The notes under the pieces: generated by a model | Databases searched by the model: none | Told to the model about the DNA's origin: nothing | Seen by the model: only the letters and a program-made list of their open reading frames with translations | Program-made: the position numbers and the translations under genes | Shown here: in pieces, positions 6,739 through 19,491 of the stretch | How positions within the stretch are numbered: position 1 is the first letter of the stretch | How the letters are laid out: every line of letters starts with the position of its first letter | Origin: Orlajensenia leifsoniae | GTDB lineage: Bacteria > Actinomycetota > Actinomycetes > Actinomycetales > Microbacteriaceae | Length of the DNA: 64,000 bases | Reading direction: 5' to 3' | NCBI RefSeq assembly: GCF_004570845.1 | Contig: NZ_SPQZ01000003.1 | Span: 558,001-622,000 of the forward strand

Positions 6739-8520
6739 GTGAGTGAGGACGTGCCGGCAGTCGAGCCGGCCACTGCGACGCGTCGTCGTGGCCGGCTCGT
6801 CTGGCTGATCGTCGGTGTCGTGCTCGTCGCGGTGGTCGGCGCCGTCGTCTGGGTCGGCGTACGTGGCTGGCTCGCCAAGGGCGAGCTCGAGGCCGCCGCG
6901 GTGACGGCCGAGAAACTGCAGGCCGACATCGTCGCGGGCGACACCGCTGCGGCCGCTGACGGTGCCGACAAGCTCGTCGACCACACCCATGAGGCGGCCG
7001 CTCTCACGGGCGACCCGATCTGGGCGCTCGCCGAGATCGTGCCCGTCGTCGGACCGAACCTGAGCGCGGTCAGGGTGCTGTCGACCCAGCTCGACGCTGC
7101 CGCCAGCGGAGCCATCCGGCCGTTGACCGGCCTGGCGCAGTCGGTGTTCGCCGAGTCGTTCCGACCCGTCGACGGCCGCATCGATGTGGAACCTCTCGTC
7201 GCGGCGCGCCCGGCAGCCCATTCCGCGCGCACTGTGCTGACGGATGCCGCGGCAGCAGTGGGCGCGATCGACGACGACGGCCTCCTCGGCCCCGTCGCCG
7301 ACGCGAAGACGTCCCTCGCCACGGCCCTGGGCCAGGCAGCGGGACTCAGCGCGACTCTCGATGACGCGCTCGTGATCGCCCCCGTCATGCTGGGTGCCGA
7401 CGGCCCCCGCAACTACCTGGTGCTGTTCCAGAACAACGCGGAGCTCCGCACGGCCGGCGGCATCCCCGGAGCCTTCGCCCTCGTGCACGCGGAGGACGGG
7501 TTGCTCCAGCTGGTCAGGCAGGCGAGTACCGCGGACTTCTCGCCGAACGGACCAGCGCTTCCCGCGCCCGCCGCGATGGCCGCCGTGTTCGGTGACGGCA
7601 TGAGCAGCCACATCCAGGACGTCACGATGACGCCGGACTTCACCGTGAGCGCCGACCTCGCCTCAGCCATGTGGGAGCGGAAGTTCGGCGGCACGGTCGA
7701 CGGCGTGATCGCCGTCGATCCCGTCGCCCTCAGCTATCTGCTGGGAGCGACAGGCCCGGTGACCCTCGCCGATGGTTCCGAGCTCACCACAGAGAACGCG
7801 GTGACGTCTCTGCTCGTCGACGTCTACACGCGCTTCCCCGATGGCGCCGCCCAGGACGCGTTCTTCGCCGAGTCCGCCGCGGCGAGTTTCAAGGCGATCA
7901 CCGGAGGCGCCGCGGATCCGAAGGCCCTGGTGTCGGCTCTCGCCCGCGCCGGCGACGAGAACCGCGTCGCCCTCTGGAGCAACGACGAATCCGTGCAGAG
8001 CGTTCTCGCCGGAACCACTCTCGCGGGTCTCGACGCTGCGCAGAAGGAGCTCGGCCCGGAGGCCTACGGCGTCTATCTCAACGACGCCACCGGCGCGAAG
8101 ATGGACCCGTATCTCGACGTCGCGATGGCCGTGGGGGCGGTGCCGCGCGATGACGGGCGGTCCGACGTCACGGTCACCGTGACCCTCACCAGCACGGCCG
8201 CAGCGGACGCCGCGACGAGCTACCCTCCCGTGGTCGCCGGCACCGGCTTCTACGGGGTCGCACCAGGTCAGATCGCGACGAACGTGACGGTCTTCGCTCC
8301 TGCCGGCGCCTTCGACGCCGGCGTGGAACGCGACGGCGAGCGGGTCGAGTACGCCCCGGCCGTCGTCGACGACCGTGCAGTGAGTTCGGTGGGCGTCACG
8401 CTGGCTCCGGGCGAGAAGGCGGAGCTGGTCTTCCACTACACCTCGGCCGAGAAGGGTCAGTCGGAACCGCTGCTGCTCCACACGCCGTTGATGAAGAACA
8501 TCACCGTCGGCTCCCTCTGA
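6739..8520 (+). CDS. DUF4012 domain membrane-anchored protein
   Basis: A 593-residue protein of the DUF4012 family, whose biochemical role is not established; relatives often sit in actinobacterial cell-surface or polysaccharide loci. One transmembrane helix lies near residues 15-37 after an Arg-rich start, so the rest should be outside the cell. The family segments are a helical part with EIVPVVGPNLSAV, then NYLVLFQNNAELRTAGGIPGAF around residues 225-247, and a Gly/Asp-rich C-terminal half. GTG at 6739 is the start; the gene begins four bases after the sortase-substrate gene and is probably cotranscribed, which suggests a joint envelope role. Confidence 0.8.
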   Translation: MSEDVPAVEPATATRRRGRLVWLIVGVVLVAVVGAVVWVGVRGWLAKGELEAAAVTAEKLQADIVAGDTAAAADGADKLVDHTHEAAALTGDPIWALAEIVPVVGPNLSAVRVLSTQLDAAASGAIRPLTGLAQSVFAESFRPVDGRIDVEPLVAARPAAHSARTVLTDAAAAVGAIDDDGLLGPVADAKTSLATALGQAAGLSATLDDALVIAPVMLGADGPRNYLVLFQNNAELRTAGGIPGAFALVHAEDGLLQLVRQASTADFSPNGPALPAPAAMAAVFGDGMSSHIQDVTMTPDFTVSADLASAMWERKFGGTVDGVIAVDPVALSYLLGATGPVTLADGSELTTENAVTSLLVDVYTRFPDGAAQDAFFAESAAASFKAITGGAADPKALVSALARAGDENRVALWSNDESVQSVLAGTTLAGLDAAQKELGPEAYGVYLNDATGAKMDPYLDVAMAVGAVPRDDGRSDVTVTVTLTSTAAADAATSYPPVVAGTGFYGVAPGQIATNVTVFAPAGAFDAGVERDGERVEYAPAVVDDRAVSSVGVTLAPGEKAELVFHYTSAEKGQSEPLLLHTPLMKNITVGSL

Positions 8521-8575: not shown

Positions 8576-8589
8576 CTAAACCGGTTTAG
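8576..8589. promoter_or_regulatory. Palindromic LacI-type operator
   Basis: CTAAACCGGTTTAG is a perfect 14-base palindrome with the central CG typical of LacI/GalR operators. It lies 41 bases before the lacI-type gene and directly after a TATGGT that could be its -10 box, so it is probably used for autoregulation and for control of the sugar operon. A CCCCC/GGGGG mini-hairpin lies just upstream (8552-8566). Confidence 0.75.
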
Positions 8590-8630
8590 GTGAGCGATGC
8601 TCATCCGACCGGCCTCGACGAGGAGGACCG

Positions 8631-9707
8631 ATGGCTGAGGAACCCGACGTGACCGCAGCGCCTGCGCTGCCGGCATCCGGCGCCCGTCCGACCATCGCCG
8701 ATGTCGCGCGTCGGGCCGGCGTGAGCAAGGGACTCGTCTCCTTCGCCCTGAACGACAGGCCCGGCGTGAAGGCCGAGACCCGTGAGCGCATCCTGGGGGT
8801 CGCCGACGAGCTGGGCTTCACGCCGAGTGTGCGCGCCCGCGCCCTGAGCGTCGACCGCTCCTTCGCCCTCGGGCTCGTCATCGCCCGCGATCCGTCGATC
8901 GTCGCCGCCGATCCGTTCTTCCCCACCTTCATCTCGGGGGTGGAGAGCGAGCTCTCCGAGGTGGGCCAGGCGCTCGTGCTGGCCTCGACCACCTCGCAGC
9001 GGCAGGAGGCCGAGACCTATCGGCAGCTCGCCGGTGACAAGAGGGTCGACGGCGTCTTCCTCACCGACCTGCGCGCGAACGACGAGCGCATCGGCCTGCT
9101 GCAGAAGCTGGGCCTGCGCGCGGTCACCCTCGGGCGGCCCGACGTCTCCTCCCCGTTCCCCGCCGTGTCGAGCGACGATGGTGCCGGCATCCGCGCTGTC
9201 GTGGATCACCTCGTCCTCCTCGGCCACACTCGCATCGCGCACGTCGCCGGACCCGCGGACCTGCTGCACGCAGCGCACCGCCGCACCGCCTTCGAAGGCG
9301 CGATGACGGATGCCGGCCTCGACGCGACCCGCGTCGTCGAGACCGACTTCTCCGCGCGGGAGGGCGCCGAGGCGACCCGGCGCCTGCTCGCTGTGCGGTC
9401 GTCGCACCGGCCGACGGCGATCGTCTACTCGAACGACCCGATGGCCATCGCCGGTATCGCCATCGCCCGTCGCGCCGGCCTCGACGTGCCGCGCGACCTC
9501 TCGGTGGCCGGCTTCGACAACACCGACCTGGCCGAGCACGTGTACCCGTCGCTCACCTCGGTGGCCACGGATGTCGCACTCTGGGGCGCGACGGCCGCCC
9601 GCGTGCTGCTCGCGGCCGTCGCCGGCGACGCCATCGACGGCCGCACCCCGTTGCCGACCCGGCTCGTCATCCGCGAATCGACCGCTGCAGCCCCCACGAC
9701 CACCTGA
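8631..9707 (+). CDS. LacI family transcriptional regulator
   Basis: A 358-residue sugar-responsive repressor. The N-terminal helix-turn-helix reads TIADVARRAGVSKGLVSFALN (about residues 23-43), followed by the hinge-helix region and a periplasmic-binding-protein-like sensor domain ending in SVAGFDNTDLAEHVYPSLTSV, the usual C-terminal signature. GAGGAGG precedes the ATG. It is the first gene of a sugar import and glycosidase operon and has a perfect palindrome upstream, so it most likely represses that operon until a sugar binds. The inducer is unknown, but may be a manno-oligosaccharide given the GH130 gene downstream. Confidence 0.93.
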   Translation: MAEEPDVTAAPALPASGARPTIADVARRAGVSKGLVSFALNDRPGVKAETRERILGVADELGFTPSVRARALSVDRSFALGLVIARDPSIVAADPFFPTFISGVESELSEVGQALVLASTTSQRQEAETYRQLAGDKRVDGVFLTDLRANDERIGLLQKLGLRAVTLGRPDVSSPFPAVSSDDGAGIRAVVDHLVLLGHTRIAHVAGPADLLHAAHRRTAFEGAMTDAGLDATRVVETDFSAREGAEATRRLLAVRSSHRPTAIVYSNDPMAIAGIAIARRAGLDVPRDLSVAGFDNTDLAEHVYPSLTSVATDVALWGATAARVLLAAVAGDAIDGRTPLPTRLVIRESTAAAPTTT

Positions 9708-9757
9708 ACACAGTGAAGAACCGACGGTACGACCCGTCGCAACGAAAGGAAGAAATC

Positions 9758-11038
9758 ATGCGAAGAGGCATGACGATCGGAATCCTGGCCGCCGCGACGG
9801 CCGTCGCCCTCGTGGGCTGTTCGGGCGGAGGCGGAGGGGGAGACGCGAGGACGAAGGGCCCGATCACCATCTGGTACTCGAACAACGAGGCCGAGATCGC
9901 GTGGGGCAAGCAGATGGTGGAGGCGTGGAACGCCGACAACCCCGACGAGCAGGTCAAGGCGCAGGAGATCCCGGCCGGTGACAGCAGCGAAGAGGTCATC
10001 AGCGCGGCGATCACGGCGGGCAATGCGCCCTGCCTGATCTTCAACACCTCGCCGGCCGCCGTGCCGCAGTTCGAGAAGCAGGGCGGACTCGTCTCGCTCA
10101 GCGACTTCGAGGACGGCGACGACTACATCACCTCGCGCACCGGCGACCTCGCCGAGCAGTACGCCTCGGCCGACGGCGCGTACTTCCAGATGCCCTGGAA
10201 GTCGAACCCGGTCATGATCTTCTACAACAAGGACCTGTTCGCGAAGGCCGGCCTCGACGCCGACAGCCCGAAGCTGTCGACCTACGACGAGTTCCTCACG
10301 GCCTCCCGCGCCATCGTGGACTCCGGTGCGGCGAAGTACGCCATCCACCCGGCTCCGACGAGCGAGTTCTTCCAGAGCTGGTTCGACTTCTATCCGCTGT
10401 ACGCCGCCGAGACCGAGGGAACGCAGCTCGTCGAGGACGGCAAGGCCACCTTCGACTCCGACGAGGGCGAGGCCGTCTCCGAACTCTGGCGCACGATGTA
10501 CGAGGAGAACCTCGCCGGCCAGGAGCAGTACCAGGGCGACTCCTTCCTCGACGGCGAGGCCGCCATGGCCATCGTCGGTCCGTGGGCCATCGCGGTCTAC
10601 GGCGACGACGTGAACTGGGGCGCGGTTCCGGTTCCCACGTCGGAGGGAACGGATGCTGCTGAGACGTACACCTTCAGCGACGCCAAGAACATCGGCCTCT
10701 ACAGCGCCTGCAAGAACCAGCAGACGGCCTGGGACGTGTTGAAGTTCGCCACCAGCGAGGAGCAGGACGGCAAGCTGCTCGAGCTCACCGGCCAGATGCC
10801 GCTGCGCAGCGACCTCACGACGGTCTACCCCGACTACTTCGCCGACAACCCCGCCTACACGGTGTTCGGCGACCAGGCGAGCCGAACCGTCGAGGTGCCC
10901 AACGTCGCGAACTCCGTGGAGATCTGGCAGAACTTCCGCGACGGCTACTCCAAGGCCGTCATCTTCGGCGAGGGCGACATTCCCGCCTTCCTGAAGGACA
11001 CCGCCGCCAAGATCGACACCCTCGCAAGCGCGAACTGA
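9758..11038 (+). CDS. Sugar ABC transporter substrate-binding lipoprotein
   Basis: A 426-residue family 1 extracellular binding protein for oligosaccharides. The signal peptide ends in a lipobox (ALVGC, Cys21) followed by a Gly run. The mature part begins PITIWYSNNEAE and later shows MPWKSNPVMIFYNKDLFAKAGLD and MAIVGPWAIAVYG, both typical of this family. ATG 9758 was chosen because AAAGGAAGAAATC precedes it; a GTG 15 codons earlier has no such site. It belongs to the LacI-regulated operon with two permeases and a GH130 enzyme. No ATPase gene is present, so a shared MsmK/UgpC-type ATPase elsewhere is expected. Confidence 0.92.
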   Translation: MRRGMTIGILAAATAVALVGCSGGGGGGDARTKGPITIWYSNNEAEIAWGKQMVEAWNADNPDEQVKAQEIPAGDSSEEVISAAITAGNAPCLIFNTSPAAVPQFEKQGGLVSLSDFEDGDDYITSRTGDLAEQYASADGAYFQMPWKSNPVMIFYNKDLFAKAGLDADSPKLSTYDEFLTASRAIVDSGAAKYAIHPAPTSEFFQSWFDFYPLYAAETEGTQLVEDGKATFDSDEGEAVSELWRTMYEENLAGQEQYQGDSFLDGEAAMAIVGPWAIAVYGDDVNWGAVPVPTSEGTDAAETYTFSDAKNIGLYSACKNQQTAWDVLKFATSEEQDGKLLELTGQMPLRSDLTTVYPDYFADNPAYTVFGDQASRTVEVPNVANSVEIWQNFRDGYSKAVIFGEGDIPAFLKDTAAKIDTLASAN

Positions 11039-11046
11039 CATCGATC

Positions 11047-11991
11047 ATGACCACCATCACCCGACCGACGGAGGTCGAGGCGCAGCGACAAGACGCGCCT
11101 CGGCCCCGCCGCCGGCGCTGGCTGGGAAGCAGCCCCCTCGGTCTGCTCTTCACGGCGCCCTACCTGATCTTCATCTGCGCGATCTTCGCGTATCCGATCG
11201 TCTTCGCGGTCTGGATGTCGTTCCAGGACTACTTCTTCTCCGCTCCCGGGGTCGAGGTCGACCGGCCGTTCGTGGGCTTCGACAACTACATCGCGGTGCT
11301 GCAGGACCCGGCGGTCTGGCAGTCCTTCCGCAACGTCGGCGTCTTCCTGATCATCAACGTGCCACTCACGGTGGTGCTCTCGATCGTGCTGGCATCGGCG
11401 CTCAACCGCGTCGTGCACGCGCGGGCGTTCCTCCGCGTCAGCTACTACGTGCCCTACGTCGCGGCTTCGGTCGCCGTGGTCGGCGTCTGGCTGTTCCTGT
11501 TCAGCGGGGGCGGGCTCGTGAACAACGTGCTCGGCGACTTGGCCCCCGTTCCGTCCTGGCTCATCAACTCGCAGCTCGCGATGCCCGTCATCGCGCTCTT
11601 CGTCACCTGGAAGCAGCTCGGGTTCTACATCCTGCTCTACCTCGCGGCTCTCCAGAACGTGCCGAAGGAGCTGTACGAATCGGCGGCGACGGATGGCGCA
11701 GGCGGTGTGCGCACCTTCTTCTCCGTCACGGTCCCGGGCGTGCGCCCGGCGACCCTGCTCGTCCTGCTGATCTCGACGATCACCGGCGCGAACCTGTTCA
11801 CGGAGCCCTACCTGCTGACGGGCGGCGGAGGACCCAACGGTGCATCGGCCAGTCCGGTGCTCCTGATGTACCAGAAGGGCATCGAGCAGGGGAATCCGGA
11901 TGTCGCCTCGGCGATCGGCGTGATCCTGATCATCTGCGTGCTCATCATCGCCTTCATCCAGCGTCGCCTCGTGAGAGATGAGGAATCATGA
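11047..11991 (+). CDS. Carbohydrate ABC transporter permease, MalF type
   Basis: A 314-residue inner-membrane permease of the MalF/UgpA family. Six hydrophobic segments follow a 35-residue Arg-rich cytoplasmic N-terminus. The EAA loop that contacts the ATPase appears as ESAATDGAGGVRTFFSVTVP near residue 215. FTEPYLLTGGGGPNG is a common MalF-like periplasmic segment. It starts eight bases after the binding-protein gene and overlaps the next permease by four bases. Confidence 0.92.
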   Translation: MTTITRPTEVEAQRQDAPRPRRRRWLGSSPLGLLFTAPYLIFICAIFAYPIVFAVWMSFQDYFFSAPGVEVDRPFVGFDNYIAVLQDPAVWQSFRNVGVFLIINVPLTVVLSIVLASALNRVVHARAFLRVSYYVPYVAASVAVVGVWLFLFSGGGLVNNVLGDLAPVPSWLINSQLAMPVIALFVTWKQLGFYILLYLAALQNVPKELYESAATDGAGGVRTFFSVTVPGVRPATLLVLLISTITGANLFTEPYLLTGGGGPNGASASPVLLMYQKGIEQGNPDVASAIGVILIICVLIIAFIQRRLVRDEES

Positions 11992-12821
11992 TCCGGTTCG
12001 GAATGGTGCTCCGCTACATCCTGCTGCTCCTCGGGGCACTCGTCTTCCTGTTCCCCTTCTACTACATGGTCGTGGGCTCGTTGCAGGCCACGCCCGACTC
12101 CAGCCCGGCGGGCGCCTTCCCGGCACCCGGCAACCTGACCCTCGACAACTACGTGGCCGTCAACGAGCGCATCAACCTGCTGCAGGGGCTGGTCAACTCC
12201 GGCATCTTCACCGGCGGTGTGCTCCTCGGAACAGTCGTGTTCGGGCTCCTGGCCGGGTATGCGCTCGCGGTGCTCTCGTTCCGCGGGCGAGGCACGATCT
12301 TCGCGCTCGTGCTGCTGGTGCAGGTCATCCCGTTCCAGTTGCTGATGATCCCGCTCTACGTGATGATCGCCCGCAACTACGGCCTCAGCGACAACTACCT
12401 GGGCATGATCCTGCCGTTCTTCATCAGCTCGGTGGCCGTGCTCATCTTCAGGCAGTACTTCCTGCAGTTGCCGAAGGACCTGTTCAACGCCGCCCGCATC
12501 GACGGCGCCAGTGAGCTGCGCATCCTCTGGAGCGTCGCCATCCCGCTGGTGCGACCGGCCCTGCTCACCGTGGTGCTGCTCACCTTCATCGGTCCGTGGA
12601 ACGAGTTCCTCTGGCCGTTCCTGATCACCAAGGAGGCGTCGATGCAACCACTCGCCGTCTCGCTCGCCAACTACATCTCCTCGATCGCGGCGTCGACGGC
12701 GAACCCCTTCGGTTCCCTCCTCGCCGGAGCCGTCGTGCTCGCCGTGCCCGTCGTGGTGCTGCTGATCATCTTCCAGCGTCAGTTCGTCTCGAACGACATC
12801 GGATCGGGAGTGAAGGGATGA
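11988..12821 (+). CDS. Carbohydrate ABC transporter permease, MalG type
   Basis: A 277-residue partner permease of the MalG/UgpE family with six hydrophobic helices. The conserved cytoplasmic loop reads NAARIDGASELRILWSVAIPLVRPAL (split by family into an EAA-type motif), and WNEFLWPFLIT follows. It overlaps the upstream permease (ATGA) and the downstream GH130 gene (ATGA), so import and phosphorolysis/hydrolysis are translationally coupled. Confidence 0.92.
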   Translation: MIRFGMVLRYILLLLGALVFLFPFYYMVVGSLQATPDSSPAGAFPAPGNLTLDNYVAVNERINLLQGLVNSGIFTGGVLLGTVVFGLLAGYALAVLSFRGRGTIFALVLLVQVIPFQLLMIPLYVMIARNYGLSDNYLGMILPFFISSVAVLIFRQYFLQLPKDLFNAARIDGASELRILWSVAIPLVRPALLTVVLLTFIGPWNEFLWPFLITKEASMQPLAVSLANYISSIAASTANPFGSLLAGAVVLAVPVVVLLIIFQRQFVSNDIGSGVKG

Positions 12822-13897
12822 CCATGCAGATTCCATACACGCTCACCCGGGCCGGCGTCATCATGACGCCGGAGCCCGGCAACGACCTCGAGGCCGAGGG
12901 GGTGCTCAACCCGGCGACGGCCCGCGCCGCGAACGGCGAGTTGTACCTGTTCCCCAGGCTCGTGGCATCCGGCAACGTCTCCAGGGTCGGCATAGCGCGC
13001 ATCGTGCTGGACGACGGAGTGCCTGTCGGCGTGGAACGCGAGGGCATCGTGCTCGAGCCGGACCGCGGGTGGGAGCACGGCGTCGGCAACGGGGGCGTCG
13101 AGGATCCGCGCATCACGCGCATCGACGAACTCGGCCTGCACGTGATGACCTACGTCGCGTACGGCCCCCTCGGTCCCCGCACGGCCATCGCCGTGTCGGA
13201 GGACCTGCGGGACTGGCAGCGCCTCGGGCCGGCACTCTTCGCCTATGACGACGCCCTCGACGCAGACCTCAACCTGTTTCACAACAAGGACACCGTGTTC
13301 TTCCCGGAGGCCGTGACGGGTCCGGACGGAGTGCGCAGCCTCGCCGTGCTGCACCGGCCGATGTGGGACCTCGACGAGGTCAAGGCGGGTCAGGGAGTGC
13401 GCACTCCCGCGAACGTGCCCGATGCGCGGCAGTCCATCTGGATCAGCTTCGTGCACCTGGCCGATGTCCAGAAGGACCTGGCCGCCCTCACGTTCTGGCG
13501 CAACCACCGCTTCCTGGCCGGCCCCGAGCACCCGTTCGAGGCGCTCAAGATCGGCGGCGGACCGGCTCCGCTGCGGGTCCCGGAGGGCTGGCTGCTGCTG
13601 CACCACGGGGTGACCGGCACCATCACGAGCGCCTTCGACCAGCAGCAGAACGTGAACTACGCCGTCGGGGCCATGATCCTCGACGCCGACGACCCCACCC
13701 GGGTGATCGCTCGCAGCGCGGAACCGCTGCTCGCCCCGGAGACCGAGGAGGAGCGCAGCGGCATCGTGCCCAACGTGGTCTTCCCCACGGCCATCGAGCT
13801 CATCGACGGCGTGCACTGGCTGTTCTACGGGATGGCCGACTCGAAGATCGGCGTCGCCAGACTCGATCGCAGTACCGCCCGCGAGACATCTGACTGA
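12818..13897 (+). CDS. GH130 family beta-mannoside phosphorylase or hydrolase
   Basis: A 359-residue cytoplasmic five-bladed propeller enzyme of glycoside hydrolase family 130. Members cleave beta-mannosidic bonds, most by phosphorolysis giving mannose 1-phosphate, some by hydrolysis. The family signature GVEDPRIT carries the predicted proton donor Asp96, and LFHNKDTVFFPE and the later LLHHGV segment are also typical. The ATG at 12818 overlaps the permease stop, and no signal peptide is present, so it acts on an imported oligosaccharide. Whether phosphate-binding residues are all present was not settled, so phosphorylase versus hydrolase is open. Confidence 0.82.
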   Translation: MTMQIPYTLTRAGVIMTPEPGNDLEAEGVLNPATARAANGELYLFPRLVASGNVSRVGIARIVLDDGVPVGVEREGIVLEPDRGWEHGVGNGGVEDPRITRIDELGLHVMTYVAYGPLGPRTAIAVSEDLRDWQRLGPALFAYDDALDADLNLFHNKDTVFFPEAVTGPDGVRSLAVLHRPMWDLDEVKAGQGVRTPANVPDARQSIWISFVHLADVQKDLAALTFWRNHRFLAGPEHPFEALKIGGGPAPLRVPEGWLLLHHGVTGTITSAFDQQQNVNYAVGAMILDADDPTRVIARSAEPLLAPETEEERSGIVPNVVFPTAIELIDGVHWLFYGMADSKIGVARLDRSTARETSD

Positions 13898-13909
13898 GGA
13901 GCACCTCCC

Positions 13910-15949
13910 ATGACCACCATCACGACGCGACGGATGCGGATGGGCATGCTGCTCACGGCCACGCTCGCCGTCACCGGCCTCTCGGGCTTGGCGGCGGCGC
14001 CGGCGACGGCCGCGCCTGCGGCATCCGTCACCCCGCTCACCAACCTCGCCCACCTCGACTTCCTGCTCGACACCGCCGAGCCCGTCGCCGTCGACGGCCA
14101 CACGACCTACAGGCTCGACGAGGAGCCGCAGCTCGTGCTGCCGTGGACCTACGCCGACGCCCGTGACGGCGGCACCTTCGAACGTGTCGGCGGCGGACCG
14201 CTCGACGCGGCGACAGGGGACTGGGGCCAGGGCGCCTACAACGCCGACGACGTGGCGCGGGCCGCCGTCGTCTACCTCAGGCACTGGCGGCTCACGGGCG
14301 AGGCCTCGAGTCGCACCAGCGCCTACGAGATGCTGCGATCGCTCGCCTACCTGCAGACCTCGTCGGGAGCGAACTCCGGCAACGTCGTGCTGTGGATGCA
14401 GCCCGACGGCGAGCTCAACCCGAGCGCCGAGCCCGTCGAGCTGCCGAACCCGTCGGACTCCGGACCCAGCTACTGGACCGCCCGCGCGCTCTGGGCCTTC
14501 GGTGAGGGCTACGCGGCCTTCGCCGAGAGCGGCACAGCCGACGATGCGGCCTTCGCGTCCTTCCTCGGGGAGAGGCTCGCCCTCTCGCGTGCGGCGGTCG
14601 ACACCCAGGTGCTGAGCCGCTACGGGGAGTACGAGCAGAGCGACGGACTGAAGGTTCCCGCCTGGCTGATCGTCGACGGTGCCGACGCCTCGGCCGAGGC
14701 CGTGCTCGGACTGTCGGCCTACGTCGACTCGAGTGGCGACCCCGCGGCTCGCGAGACCCTGCGCAAGCTCGCCGAGGGCATCGCCGCGATGGGGGCGGCA
14801 TCGGGAGCCGACACCAGGTCGTGGCCCTACGGCGCGATCCTGCCGTGGGCGCAGTCGCGCTCGATGTGGCACGCGTGGGGGTCGCAGATGCCGGCGGCGC
14901 TCGCCGCGGCATCCGGAACCCTCGGCACGTCGTCTCTCCTGAAGCCGGCGGTACGCGACGCCGCCGTGTTCACGGCGACGCTCCTTCTCGCCGGCGGACC
15001 CGACAACGGCTGGTTCCCGACTCCGACCGACACCACCCAGATCGCCTACGGCGCCGACTCCCGCCTGCAGTCGCTCCTCGCGGTCGCCGATGCGACGGGT
15101 TCCCCGGCCTTCGACCAGCTCGCGGCCATCCAGGCAGCGTGGTTCTTCGGGGCCAACCGGGCCTCGGCGCCGATGTACGACCCGGCCACGGGTGTCACCT
15201 TCGACGGACTCGCTCCCGACGGCACGATCAACCGCAACGGCGGTGCCGAGAGCACGATTCACGGCCTGCTGTCGATGATCGCCCTCGATGCCCGCCCGGA
15301 TGTGGCTGCTCGAGCGCAGGGCGTCACCACGGTGTCGCAGCGCGACGGGCTGCACCTGCTCGAGGCCGAGACCGGCTCGGGCGGAGCGGTGTCGACGCCG
15401 GCTTCAGCGTGGACCGGCGAGTCTCTCTACAGCGGTGACGTGCTCACGGTGAAGACGGGCTCGAAGGCTGTCCTCCCGATCGGCGCCGCCGACCAGCCAC
15501 GCGTCGTGGAGTCTGTGCAGTGGGTCGAGCCGGGCGACCGGGTGCGATCGTTGTGGACGAGCGGCATCCTGCCCCTCGGGCTGCTCTCGATCCGCGGACC
15601 GGAGCAGGGCATCAGCCCGACGCCGGGGGTGCTGCTGCCGCAGGTGTTGCAGCTGCCCGTGCCGGCGCGTGCCACCACGGTGACCGTACGGCCGCTGGGC
15701 GGAACCGCCACCATAGACAACCTGATCGTGCGACCTCTGGTCTCGCGGATGCTGCTGAATGGGACAGCTGGCGACACGCAACTGCTGCAGTCGGCCGCCC
15801 GCATCCCGTGGCCCACGACAGTCGGAGTGGGAGCCGCGGCGTCACTGAGCGTCTACGACGCGTCGGGACGGCTGGTGAGCCAGCGCGACATCGGGGCGTC
15901 GGCCAGGACGGTGCTGCCCGCCGGAGGATTCGCCGTGGTCACGCGGTAG
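13910..15949 (+). CDS. Secreted six-hairpin glycosidase-like protein
   Basis: A 679-residue exported protein. A basic N-terminus and hydrophobic LLTATLAVTGLSGLAAA lead to a likely AxA cleavage (ATAAPAA). Residues about 60-460 look like an alpha/alpha barrel, with repeated helical pairs (GAYNADDVARAAVVYLRHW, SYWTARALWAFGEGYAAF, HAWGSQMPAALAAASG, ESTIHGLLSMIAL), as in six-hairpin glycosidases or lyases. Residues about 470-679 are beta-rich and may bind carbohydrate. It has no membrane anchor and closes the LacI-GH130 operon, 12 bases after GH130, with GAGGAG before the ATG. No family could be named with confidence; an extracellular depolymerase feeding the importer is the inference. Confidence 0.6.
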   Translation: MTTITTRRMRMGMLLTATLAVTGLSGLAAAPATAAPAASVTPLTNLAHLDFLLDTAEPVAVDGHTTYRLDEEPQLVLPWTYADARDGGTFERVGGGPLDAATGDWGQGAYNADDVARAAVVYLRHWRLTGEASSRTSAYEMLRSLAYLQTSSGANSGNVVLWMQPDGELNPSAEPVELPNPSDSGPSYWTARALWAFGEGYAAFAESGTADDAAFASFLGERLALSRAAVDTQVLSRYGEYEQSDGLKVPAWLIVDGADASAEAVLGLSAYVDSSGDPAARETLRKLAEGIAAMGAASGADTRSWPYGAILPWAQSRSMWHAWGSQMPAALAAASGTLGTSSLLKPAVRDAAVFTATLLLAGGPDNGWFPTPTDTTQIAYGADSRLQSLLAVADATGSPAFDQLAAIQAAWFFGANRASAPMYDPATGVTFDGLAPDGTINRNGGAESTIHGLLSMIALDARPDVAARAQGVTTVSQRDGLHLLEAETGSGGAVSTPASAWTGESLYSGDVLTVKTGSKAVLPIGAADQPRVVESVQWVEPGDRVRSLWTSGILPLGLLSIRGPEQGISPTPGVLLPQVLQLPVPARATTVTVRPLGGTATIDNLIVRPLVSRMLLNGTAGDTQLLQSAARIPWPTTVGVGAAASLSVYDASGRLVSQRDIGASARTVLPAGGFAVVTR

Positions 15950-15985: not shown

Positions 15986-16987
15986 GTGGGTGACCTCCAG
16001 CTGGGCTACGCGGCGATGCTCGAGCAGTTCGCGCCCTCGGAGGCCGTCGCACTGGCGGCCTTCGCCGAGCAGAACGGCTTCCGCGGAGTCATGGCCGACG
16101 ACCACTTCCAGCCGTGGGTGCCCCAGCAGGGCCAGGCCGGTTTCGTGTGGAACGTGCTCACGGCCGTCGCCGAGCGCACGACGGGCGACATCGGCCCCGG
16201 TGTGACGGCGCCGACCTACCGCTGGCATCCCGCGATCGTCGCCCAGGCGTCAGCCACCCTCGCCTCGATGTACCCGGGCAGGCACTGGCTGGGCATCGGC
16301 TCGGGTGAGGCACTGAACGAGCACATCGTCGGCGCCTACTGGCCCGAGCCGGCTGAGCGCATCAACCGCATGTTCGAGGCCATCGAGGTGATCTCGAAGC
16401 TGTTCACAGCCTCGATCGCCGGCCGCGACGTCAAGCACTCCGGCCCCCACTTCACGCTCGAGTCCACGCGTCTCTGGACGATGCCGCCCGTCGCCCCCGA
16501 GATCCTGGTCGCGACCAGTGGACCGCTGACAGCACGTCGTGCCGGACGCGTCGCCGACGGACTCATCACCGTGGCCGCGCCGCTGGAGCGCATCGCCGGA
16601 CTCTTCGATCGGTTCGCCCTCGGGGCGCGCGATGCGGGCAAGGACCCCGCCACGATGCCCAAGGTGCTGCAGCTGCACCTGTCGTGGGCGCCGACAGACG
16701 AGGAGGCGATGCGCAACGCGCTCGTCGAGTGGCCCAACGGCGGCATGCGGTTCCCGAAGAGCGACATCCGTTCGCCGTTCGAGTTCGAACAGGTCGCGCG
16801 GATGGTCCGTCCCGAGGACTTCGAGGGCAGAATGGTGATCTCGAGTGATACCGACGTGCACCGCGCGTCGATCCAGAAGTACGCCGACCTGGGCTTCGAC
16901 CGCATCTACCTGCACAACGTGGGCCGCAACCAGCGGGAGTGGATCGAGGTCTTCGGCCGCGACGTGCTCCCCGCCGTCAGGAGGTGA
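15986..16987 (+). CDS. F420-dependent LLM-class oxidoreductase, FGD-like
   Basis: A 333-residue luciferase-like (TIM-barrel) oxidoreductase close to F420-dependent glucose-6-phosphate dehydrogenase. It keeps DHFQPW (His40, Trp44) and SGEALNEH, the F420-site motifs of FGD, but lacks the FGD sugar-phosphate segments, so it probably uses another substrate (the TIGR03557-type group, from memory). GTG at 15986 has a CAGGAT box six bases upstream. It begins the plus-strand F420 run; its stop is two bases before the cofE start, so the two are surely cotranscribed. Confidence 0.85.
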
Positions 16988-16989
16988 CG

Positions 16990-17760
16990 ATGTATTCCGT
17001 CAGTGTGATCGATGACATCCCCGAGGTGCGTCCCGGCGACGACCTCGTCGAGCTGATCGGCTCCCGGGCCGAGCTCGCCGACGGCGACATCGTGGTCGTC
17101 ACCTCGAAGATCGTCTCCAAGTCCGAGGGGCGATTCGTCGCGGCGGATGACCGGGAGCAGGCGATCTCGGACGAGACGGTCCGCGTCGTCGCGACCCGCA
17201 CCACGGCCGATGGCGGCACGACCCGCATCGTCGAGAACCGCCTCGGCATCGTGTCCGCTGCGGCCGGCGTCGACGCCTCAAACACCCCGGACGGAACCGT
17301 GCTGCTGCTGCCCGTCGACCCCGACGGGTCGGCCCGCTCCATCTGCGTCGGACTGCGCGAGCTGAGCGGCGCATCCGTCGGCGTCATCATCTCCGACACC
17401 CTCGGGAGGGCCTGGCGACAGGGGCAGGTGGATGTCGCGATCGGCGCCGCCGGCGTGCACGTCTTCGACGACCTGCGCGGCACCCTCGACACCAGCGGCA
17501 AGCCGATGGCAGTGACCCAGCCCTGCGTCGCCGACGAGCTCGCCTCGGCCGGCGACCTGGTGAAGGGCAAGACCGGCGGCACCCCCGTCGCGATCGTGCG
17601 CGGTCTCGGTCGCTTCGTCGGCGACCTCGACCTTCCCGGCGCCGCCACCATCGTGCGGCCGGTCGAGCAGGACATGTTCCGCACCGGCAGCGAGGAGGCC
17701 TACGACGAGGGCTACCGCGACGGCTTCGCCGAGGGCCAGCAGGAGGCCGTCGGCTCATGA
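16990..17760 (+). CDS. cofE: Coenzyme F420-0:L-glutamate ligase (single domain)
   Basis: A 256-residue enzyme that adds gamma-linked glutamates to F420-0 with GTP, the last step of F420 synthesis. Family motifs are [11 protein letters not shown] near residue 40, [18 protein letters not shown] near 135-150, and [24 protein letters not shown] split over 180-205. ATG 16990 follows an ideal AGGAGGTGA ribosome site. The length equals archaeal CofE; the nitroreductase-like domain fused to it in mycobacterial FbiB is missing. The acidic C-terminal tail ([18 protein letters not shown]) is unusual. It lies between two F420-dependent oxidoreductase genes. Confidence 0.92.
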
Positions 17761-17815
17761 TCCATCCCGCCCCGCACCCGCGCCCGGCATCCGGCACCAC
17801 GAAAGGCATCACAGC

Positions 17816-18835
17816 ATGACGCTCACCCTGGGATACAAGGCATCCGCGGAGCAGTTCGCGCCCCGGGAGCTGGTCGAGATCGCCGTGGCCGCGGAGGCGC
17901 ACGGCTTCGAGTCGGCGTTCGCGAGCGACCACTTCCAGCCCTGGCGCCATGAGGGCGGGCACGCTCCGTTCTCGCTGGCCTGGATGGCTGCAGTGGGCGA
18001 GCGCACCTCGACCCTGCGCATCGGCACGAGCGTGATGACGCCGACCTTCCGCTACAACCCGGCCGTTCTGGCACAGGCGTTCGCGACCCTGGGCTGCCTC
18101 TACCCGGGCCGCATCATCGCCGGCTTCGGAACCGGAGAGGCGCTCAACGAGATCGCGACGGGCTTCCGCGGAGCAGGGGAGCAGGACTGGCCTGAGTTCA
18201 AGGAGCGCTTCGGCAGGCTGCGCGAGTCGGTGCGGCTCATGCGCGCCCTGTGGAGCCAGGACCGCGTCGACTTCGAGGGCGAGTACTACTCCACGCACGG
18301 CGCGTCCATCTACGACCGGCCCGAAGGCGGCATCCCGGTGTACATCGCTGCGGGCGGCCCGACCGTCGCCAAGTACGCGGGGCGCGCAGGAGACGGCTTC
18401 ATCTGCACCTCGGGCAAGGGCTGGGACCTGTACACCGAGAAGCTCGTGCCCGCGGTGAAGGAGGGCGCCGAGGCCGGTGACCGCTCCTACGACGACCTCG
18501 ACCGCATGATCGAGATCAAGCTCTCCTACGAGGAGACCGAGGAGGCCGCGCTCGAGAACACCCGCTTCTGGGCCCCCCTGGCCCTCAGCGCGGAGCAGAA
18601 GTCGAGCATCCACGATCCGATCGAGATGGAGAAGGCGGCGGATGCCCTGCCGATCGAGAAGATCGCCTCGCGGTGGATCGTGGGCAGCGACCCCGACACC
18701 GTGACTGCCGAGATCGCGAAGTACGTCGATGCGGGCTTCAACCACCTCGTCTTCCACGCCCCCGGCGAGGACCAGCGGCGCTTCCTCGGCCTGTTCGAAC
18801 GCGACCTGGCCCCCCGCCTGCGCGCCCTCCCGTGA
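17816..18835 (+). CDS. fgd: F420-dependent glucose-6-phosphate dehydrogenase
   Basis: A 339-residue LLM enzyme that oxidises glucose 6-phosphate to 6-phosphogluconolactone while reducing F420 to F420H2, so it supplies reduced cofactor to the other F420 enzymes. It is nearly collinear with mycobacterial FGD1: [16 protein letters not shown] at the start, SDHFQPWRH with His39 and Trp43, GTGEALNE with Glu108, PVYIAAGGP, and [13 protein letters not shown] small insertion (AGEQD) follows GFRG. It starts 55 bases after cofE behind GAAAGG, and its stop overlaps cofC. Confidence 0.95.
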
Positions 18836-19491
18836 CGGCAGGCTGGTCCCTTGTCGTGCCGGTCAAGGGCACGATCGACGCCAAGAGCCGCCTGGGCGAC
18901 GCCCTCTCGGCCCAGGAGCGGTCGTCGCTGGCTCTGGCTTTCGCCCACGACACGGTCGTCGCGGCGGTGGCGAGTGCGCGAGTGGCGCGCGTCTACGTCG
19001 TGACGGACGCGGAGATCGACTGGCCTGCGTCGACGACGGCGGGGGCGGCTGAGACGGTCGTCGTGGTTCCCGAGGGCGAACGCCGCGGCCTGAACGCGGC
19101 GATCGAACTCGGCATCCGCGCCGCCGGACGTTCGCTGGGGTCGTCTGCGCCCGCCGCCGGCATCGCCGTGCTCCTCGGCGACCTGCCCGCGTTGCGAAGC
19201 GAGGACCTCGATGCGGCTCTCGCGTCGGCCGAGAATATCGACCGGGGGTTTGTCCCGGATGCCGAGGGCACGGGAACGACGCTGCTCACAGCGCGCGCCG
19301 GTCTGCCGTTGGAGCCGCGATTCGGGGAGAACTCGGCTGCGGCGCACGCCGCGCTCGGACACGTCCGCCTGGATGCCGGAACGTCACTGCGCCGCGACGT
19401 CGACGTTCCGGCCGCACTGGAGGAAGCCATGAGGCTGGGAGTCGGCGAGCGCACCCGCGCCGCCCTGTCGCCGCAGAGGATCCGGTCATGA
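18832..19491 (+). CDS. cofC: 2-phospho-L-lactate (or phosphoenolpyruvate) guanylyltransferase
   Basis: A 219-residue nucleotidyltransferase that activates a three-carbon phosphoacid with GTP for transfer by CofD. Seen motifs: [14 protein letters not shown] at residues 9-22 (nucleotide-binding loop), [17 protein letters not shown] mid-protein, and [13 protein letters not shown] with the metal aspartate. In mycobacteria the homologue (FbiD) uses phosphoenolpyruvate; archaeal CofC uses 2-phospholactate; the substrate here is not readable. GTG 18832 overlaps the fgd stop (GTGA) and its own stop overlaps the SGNH gene. Confidence 0.9.

Follow-up and report, generated by a model that had tools for sequence, protein, structure and literature searches.

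The window analysed here is a 64-kb stretch of DNA from a soil or plant-associated bacterium of the Microbacteriaceae that resembles Leifsonia, and its positions 8576-15949 carry a predicted sugar operon whose last gene encodes a secreted protein of 679 residues (SEC), the main subject of this text. The operon is a compact, co-directional unit in which an operator is followed by the genes for a LacI-family regulator, a solute-binding protein (SBP), two permeases of an ATP-binding cassette (ABC) transporter, a glycoside hydrolase family 130 (GH130) enzyme and SEC (Table 1). A sequence-only reading of this DNA had already described the palindrome, the LacI gene, the SBP, the two permeases without ATPase, the GH130 and the secreted protein as one compact unit, and every one of these elements lies where it had been placed. 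Among the named loci compared, the closest relative is Leifsonia sp. Leaf264, whose SEC is 91% identical.

Table 1. Features of the operon, with positions in the 64-kb window
Feature	Positions	Strand	Basis or remark
LacI-type operator CTAAACCGGTTTAG, perfect 14-bp palindrome	8576..8589	none	Core upstream of LacI in relatives; single exact genomic site
LacI-family regulator, 358 aa, first operon gene	8631..9707	+	PF00356, PF13377, PF00532
Extracellular solute-binding lipoprotein (SBP), 426 aa from ATG	9758..11038	+	PF01547, PF13416; start and lipobox by eye
Sugar ABC permease 1	11047..11991	+	PF00528; UgpA-like
Sugar ABC permease 2	11988..12821	+	PF00528; UgpE-like
GH130 enzyme, 359 aa, predicted beta-1,2-mannoside phosphorylase	12818..13897	+	PF04041, E 1e-34
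SEC, secreted 679-aa protein	13910..15949	+	Begins 12 bp past GH130

The start of the GH130 gene overlaps the end of permease 2. For the SBP the ATG at 9758 was preferred by eye to the program-listed GTG at 9713, because a ribosome-binding-like stretch precedes this ATG and a lipoprotein-type signal follows it. No ATPase gene lies within the operon (8576-15949); the genome has 18 matches to UgpC-type ATPases, the best four at 46-53% identity and all outside the operon, and the best of them is 53% identical to the UgpC of Sphingomonas. GH130 and SEC are each encoded by a single gene in this genome.

SEC is inherited together with GH130. This was followed in 42 named loci with a SEC homologue (L021-L062, 746,312 bp altogether), in 199 genomes from Microbacteriaceae that were searched for SEC and orthologous GH130 (the family sample), and in 396 Actinomycetota genomes, that of the host included (the phylum sample). 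GH130 adjoins SEC in 40 of the 42 named loci and in 20/20 loci from the family sample, host genome included; the two exceptions are a locus that has lost the remainder of the operon (L025) and one whose contig begins 157 nt upstream (L045). A long SEC match was found in 39 of the 199 family-sample genomes, with short, weak matches only in 8 more, and an orthologous GH130 in 50 (G022 by partial match). All 39 SEC genomes fall within these 50 (Fisher p 9e-32, shared ancestry ignored), and the two genes are at most 1 kb apart in 33 of the 39. In the phylum sample 8/396 genomes, host included, have a strong SEC match; three of the other seven were retrieved, and in L114 and L115 SEC stands with a transporter and GH130. 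In a Clavibacter michiganensis strain (L062:8821-10903) the SEC homologue is interrupted, its matches falling in separate reading frames.

SEC is also regulated together with GH130. The operator was scored in 36 of the named loci, in all of which LacI matched at 50% identity or more; the six unscored loci are L025, L026, L034, L039, L041 and L045, of which three (L034, L041, L045) lie on contigs that are truncated or short. The case for the operator rests on conservation and not on symmetry, because the window holds 18 perfect palindromes of at least 14 bp and a palindrome of this kind could arise by chance; the argument from symmetry was thus dropped. The operator core AACCGGTT lies upstream of LacI in 36/36 scored loci, and across all 42 named loci 54 of its 58 copies, and all 44 copies of the full operator motif, are upstream of LacI, which is probably autoregulated. 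Where SEC is unlinked (G102 and G028, 71 and 78 kb from the GH130 operon), it has its own perfect operator, CCTAAACCGGTTTAGA, directly upstream; the distant operon likewise has the core in front of its LacI gene. An operator copy is located just upstream of SEC in G055 and G178 as well, with SEC immediately preceding LacI in G055. The operator at the unlinked SEC genes ties this protein to the pathway by regulation besides position, and the functional link to the operon that the sequence-only reading had suspected is thereby borne out.

A wider regulon was considered and rejected, given that the host genome contains one exact operator site and that sites with two mismatches, found at 13 other places, were fewer than in a reversed control (20). 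In Microbacterium sp. cf046 (L025:8744-10905) SEC lies beside its usual neighbours with LacI-GH130 gone, and AACCGGTT is just upstream.

Judged by its sequence, SEC belongs to a family that none of the family searches could name. It has no match in Pfam (up to E 1), NCBIfam or PHROG, in agreement with the earlier remark that it fits no nameable family, and the GH76 and N-acylglucosamine 2-epimerase models of Pfam likewise gave no sequence match up to E 1. By sequence, the sole significant match in the PDB is 7TEM (E 3e-31), the putative exported protein YPO2471 of Yersinia pestis. A profile of secreted and short SEC relatives retrieved 7TEM at 2e-62, and the next row (E 0.0013) was 7tkv, part of a thioredoxin-domain protein. 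A clear match that would place SEC in a characterised family acting on an unrelated substrate, named by the sequence-only reading as the outcome that would refute it, was looked for and none was found, 7TEM being uncharacterised. No published function of 7TEM/YPO2471 was found in the open-licence literature, where the one paper on structures among those containing 7tem names it in a data list only, no paper turned up for YPO2471, and YPO2474 occurs in an expression table only.

The AlphaFold model of SEC (pLDDT 83, pTM 0.87) predicts an (alpha/alpha) barrel followed by C-terminal beta domains, and with this model and the structure comparison the original guess of a helical barrel holds. The protein comprises a signal peptide (residues 1-35, by eye), the barrel (~42-470), a module resembling carbohydrate-binding module (CBM) families CBM35/CBM6 (~480-611) and a small beta domain (~612-679). 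In VIA-align the model is closest to 7TEM (Z 30.0, 392 residues, 2.6 A), followed by sugar 2-epimerases (Z ~20-21, e.g. 341 residues at 2.9-3.0 A); the phage tail protein 7xdi is also listed (Z 21.2, rmsd 4.2). 7TEM has the same barrel as SEC and shares with it the motifs DD..R, FDG and GAEST, but its 427 residues, of which the solved chain has 404, do not include the C-terminal beta domains. When the C-terminal part of SEC was modelled alone (pLDDT 91), its module resembled CBM35/CBM6/CBM36, with Z 13.4 over 121 residues at 2.4 A to 3wnn and Z 13.2 to the CBM35 2w1w, whereas the last small beta domain was barely covered by that structure search. Foldseek rows for the model include xanthanase 6fhn and cellulase 1tf4, which, like cellulase J30, we take to be GH9 enzymes; kinship with GH9 was rejected as an established relationship, the SEC-family profile matching J30 at a non-significant E 0.39, and it remains a lead.

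Residue conservation was assessed in an alignment of 66 family sequences, both secreted and short. Wherever they are covered (65 sequences), D113, D114, R117 and R192 do not vary, and D432, G433, G445, A446, E447 and S448 are invariant in all 66; SEC carries the barrel signature of 7TEM/YPO2471 (DD..R, W, R, WF.G.N, DG, GAES). According to the helix list of the model, D113/D114, R192 and E447 are near the start of a hairpin's first helix and D424/D432 fall in the loop leading into the last hairpin, and these residues should therefore meet at one mouth of the barrel. The invariant acids and their predicted position at the barrel mouth make an inverting glycosidase mechanism plausible. GH76 alpha-1,6-mannanases also have an (alpha/alpha) barrel and a catalytic pair of adjacent Asp residues (D136N/D137N variants in PDB titles), to which the adjacent invariant pair D113-D114 of SEC may correspond; GH76 enzymes differ from SEC in linkage, show no sequence match to it and are 7-12% identical in the structural alignment.

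The membership of the window enzyme in GH130 is clear from its score against PF04041 (120 bits, gathering score 26), and its motifs are E95-D96, N156-K157-D158, H179-R180-P181, K244 and H263 (full-length numbering; numbering from Q4 runs 3 lower). When the PDB was ranked with a profile of ten operon-type enzymes, Lin0857, 7FIP (Teth514_1789) and 9FJ8, named 1,2-beta-oligomannan phosphorylase, came before TM1225 and Uhgb_MS, and the single window sequence gave 7FIP and 9FJ8, then TM1225. Lin0857 and Teth514_1789 are beta-1,2 enzymes and TM1225 is a beta-1,4 enzyme according to the available part of PMC8950772. Cuskin et al. proposed Lys199 of BT3780 as a determinant of beta-1,2 specificity, and in beta-1,2 GH130 enzymes Glu replaces Tyr beside the catalytic Asp (available part of PMC4599007). 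The NKD lysine, equivalent to Lys199 of BT3780, is found in the four beta-1,2 enzymes aligned, whereas TM1225 has NRN and YD; with K157 and E95-D96 the window GH130 agrees with the beta-1,2 rule as set out in the accessible portion of PMC4599007.

The lysine and the Glu-Asp pair are kept in 39 of the 40 operon GH130s of the named loci. The fortieth, from Streptomyces sp. NP160 (L060), is without phosphorylase-type residues at the aligned columns and resembles beta-1,2-mannosidases; it scores 174 bits against NF058598, below the cut-off of 550, and its best PDB matches are 3QC2, which we take to be a beta-1,2-mannosidase-type enzyme, and 3TAW. G224 (L115) has both GH130 types, one each. The columns of R180, K244 (K or R) and H263, presumably basic phosphate binders, are common to the window GH130 and the characterised phosphorylases; at the K244 and H263 columns, L060 and L115_1, which resemble beta-1,2-mannosidases, have other residues. 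An extra, divergent GH130-like operon gene occurs in five retrieved stretches (L145, L150, L152, L154 and L155); three of these genes were confirmed by Pfam, and one was searched in the PDB, where 7FIP (beta-1,2-mannobiose phosphorylase) was closest. These comparisons suggest that the operon probably serves beta-1,2-linked mannosides. The beta-1,4 substrates mannan and galactomannan, which had been suggested earlier, are probably wrong, since the GH130 residues and the relatives' partner genes point to beta-1,2-mannosides, and this candidate was lowered because the enzyme carries ED and NKD in place of the YD and NRN seen in TM1225.

The barrel extends well beyond SEC. Short relatives of ~340-390 residues consist of the barrel alone, sometimes fused to glycosyltransferase family 4 (GT4) or GH130, and sit in GT4-barrel-GH130 cassettes; a signal peptide is not evident in them by eye. 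Short, weak matches only or mainly were seen in 31 genomes (8 of the family sample and 23 of the phylum sample), and of the 16 loci retrieved from these all have GH130 (16/16) and a nearby GT4 (16/16). Among the cassette GH130s, a lysine occupies the position of the NKD lysine by eye in L098, L099, L107 and L129, the motif is NKD in L104, L105 and L106, DKN in L109, TKG in L111 and SRN in the second GH130 of L106, and the column is unaligned in most of the others. Such cassettes, with GT4, short barrel and GH130 in this order, occur in many Actinomycetota (L097-L112, e.g. L099:5923-9550), and in L099 a catabolic GH130 and a LacI adjoin the cassette. This arrangement suggests a possible cytosolic module for the synthesis and recycling of beta-mannan.

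A plasmid operon of Sphingomonas hankookensis (L063:7407-13938) combines the barrel with a transporter, GH130 and a DUF1861 protein that matches Leishmania MPT-1, MPT-2 and MPT-4 (MPT-4 at E 4e-51). These GT108 mannogen enzymes of Leishmania are DUF1861 proteins by sequence and act on beta-1,2-mannan (available part of PMC8950772); the window operon, in contrast, has no such relative. A plasmid of Sphingomonas paeninsulae carries a seemingly interrupted barrel copy with GT4, phosphomannose isomerase and GH130, and the gene order in Gemmatirosa is GH130-GH130-barrel-SBP-permeases-ATPase. The barrel family was thus found in Actinomycetota, Alpha- and Gammaproteobacteria and Gemmatimonadota, its record outside Actinomycetota consisting of 7TEM and three plasmid records. 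That it is nearly always near GH130, in forms outside and apparently also within the cell, suggests a substrate in common.

SEC probably cuts the polymer of the imported sugar outside the cell before uptake. We contend, at what we consider even chances, that the operon is catabolic for beta-1,2-mannan or beta-1,2-mannooligosaccharides and that SEC is an extracellular beta-1,2-mannan glycanase. SEC would be exported and would hold the polymer with its CBM35-like module, while the (alpha/alpha) barrel would cut beta-1,2-mannosidic bonds in endo or exo mode with inversion, D113/D114 and E447 (or D432) being the candidate catalytic acids. The freed oligosaccharides would be captured by the lipoprotein SBP and imported through the two permeases with a shared ATPase encoded elsewhere, and GH130 would phosphorolyse the imported pieces to alpha-mannose 1-phosphate, a step on which no ATP would be spent. 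LacI would repress the operon at CTAAACCGGTTTAG until the sugar, the putative source of its inducer, arrives.

Several findings weigh against this proposal. No activity is known for any member of the barrel family, 7TEM being unannotated, and the GH76 alpha-mannanases (Z ~17-19) rank below the epimerases in VIA-align, so the fold does not prove SEC to be a hydrolase. Eleven of the 50 GH130 genomes have no SEC match, and SEC is therefore not indispensable; in six of these eleven (L140-L145) the operator core is accompanied by LacI, the SBP, one or more called permeases and GH130, and these may be scavengers living on oligosaccharides that others release. G474 (L113), outside the family, has a barrel-only SEC and no GH130 was found in its 17-kb stretch, while L026 and L039 combine transporter, GH130 and SEC but have neither a LacI match nor AACCGGTT. 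Against NF052550, the beta-1,2-mannobiose phosphorylase model, the window GH130 reaches 124.8 bits, where the cut-off is 450. Finally, the GH130 of Sphingomonas hankookensis and one of the two in Gemmatirosa have NRD, not NKD (the second Gemmatirosa enzyme has NKN), a difference that counts against beta-1,2 specificity in the two NRD enzymes.

The same two NRD enzymes, located beside barrel relatives, would suit an operon that works alike but in which SEC cuts some other polymer that contains beta-mannose (be it beta-1,4-mannan, glucomannan, a glycan of plants or fungi, or an exopolysaccharide of bacteria) and GH130 takes the released oligosaccharide. This is conceivable for a family that spans beta-1,4, beta-1,3 and beta-1,2 substrates (available part of PMC8950772). 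It is opposed by the ED and NKD motifs found in the operon GH130s and by the partner enzymes of beta-1,2 type, and we regard it as unlikely. The position of the sugar 2-epimerases as the highest-Z enzymes after 7TEM raises the question of whether SEC, instead of being a glycanase, is an enzyme with the N-acylglucosamine 2-epimerase fold that resembles sugar epimerases/isomerases or processes oligosaccharides in exo mode. Cellobiose and N-acylglucosamine 2-epimerases share the barrel (Z up to ~21), the second profile match 7tkv (E 0.0013) has a later part that we take to be an epimerase-like barrel, and GH130 often works beside mannobiose 2-epimerase in beta-mannan pathways. Nevertheless, these enzymes have no sequence match to SEC, with no Pfam match to the epimerase family even up to E 1. 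Epimerases need a histidine pair, whereas no histidine appears among the invariant or 90% columns of SEC (H321, the only one checked, is kept in 53/66); moreover, unlike the 2-epimerases, SEC is secreted and carries a CBM-like module, unusual for an epimerase. We consider this explanation improbable. The CBM35-like module and the genomes that keep the operon without SEC could also be accommodated by a non-catalytic surface glycan-binding protein that aids capture by the transporter. Such a role appears very improbable for a protein whose four acids and two arginines are invariant across secreted and short relatives of Actinomycetota, Alpha-/Gammaproteobacteria and Gemmatimonadota, and whose short forms are without the CBM-like part.

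An extracellular beta-1,2-mannan glycanase would enter a known type of system. GH130 systems for beta-1,2-mannosides have been described (PMC4264767 and PMC4599007, available parts), and among these the Teth514_1788/1789 cluster of Thermoanaerobacter combines, like the window operon, an ABC importer with GH130 (PMC4264767). The window GH130 shares its ED and NKD motifs with Teth514_1789. Unlike the window, the cluster contains two GH130s, GH5, GT4, ATPases and two unnamed hypothetical proteins, which were not compared with SEC, and its description in the available part of PMC4264767 includes no SEC. A secreted enzyme that opens the beta-1,2-mannan polymer was not found in the open-licence literature as judged by titles, the opening lines of abstracts and word counts, where papers on "2-mannanase" look alpha-mannan-related or unrelated; what is proposed here is thus a new enzyme family in a known type of system. 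It can be speculated further, as an unlikely extension, that SEC and 7TEM are the first members of a new glycoside hydrolase family with endo-beta-1,2-mannanase activity, for which the searches turned up no enzyme, and that the short cassette members take part in a bacterial, mannogen-like synthesis and recycling of beta-1,2-mannan, with Leishmania mannogen as the eukaryotic counterpart.

Candida, trypanosomatids and certain bacterial O-antigens contain beta-1,2-mannans (available part of PMC4264767), and a secreted beta-1,2-mannan enzyme would potentially be a new tool to analyse and remove those glycans. A function would thereby also be assigned to the barrel family of Actinomycetota, Pseudomonadota and Gemmatimonadota, whose structure is solved but unexplained. 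Thanks to the operator and the gene set, a single purified protein is enough for a direct test of the hypothesis.

With regard to additional operon genes, clustering of neighbouring open reading frames in L021-L062, for which part of the clusters was scanned, gave only lineage-restricted neighbours besides SEC. The commonest downstream gene in Microbacterium (18 loci) is Ada/AlkA-like, judged from one example. In the window itself, a 593-residue gene with DUF4012 lies upstream of the operon (6739-8520), and the region downstream (15986-19491) encodes two luciferase-like oxidoreductases, an F420 gamma-glutamyl ligase (CofE) and a CofC-like guanylyltransferase, which probably form an F420 cofactor cluster.

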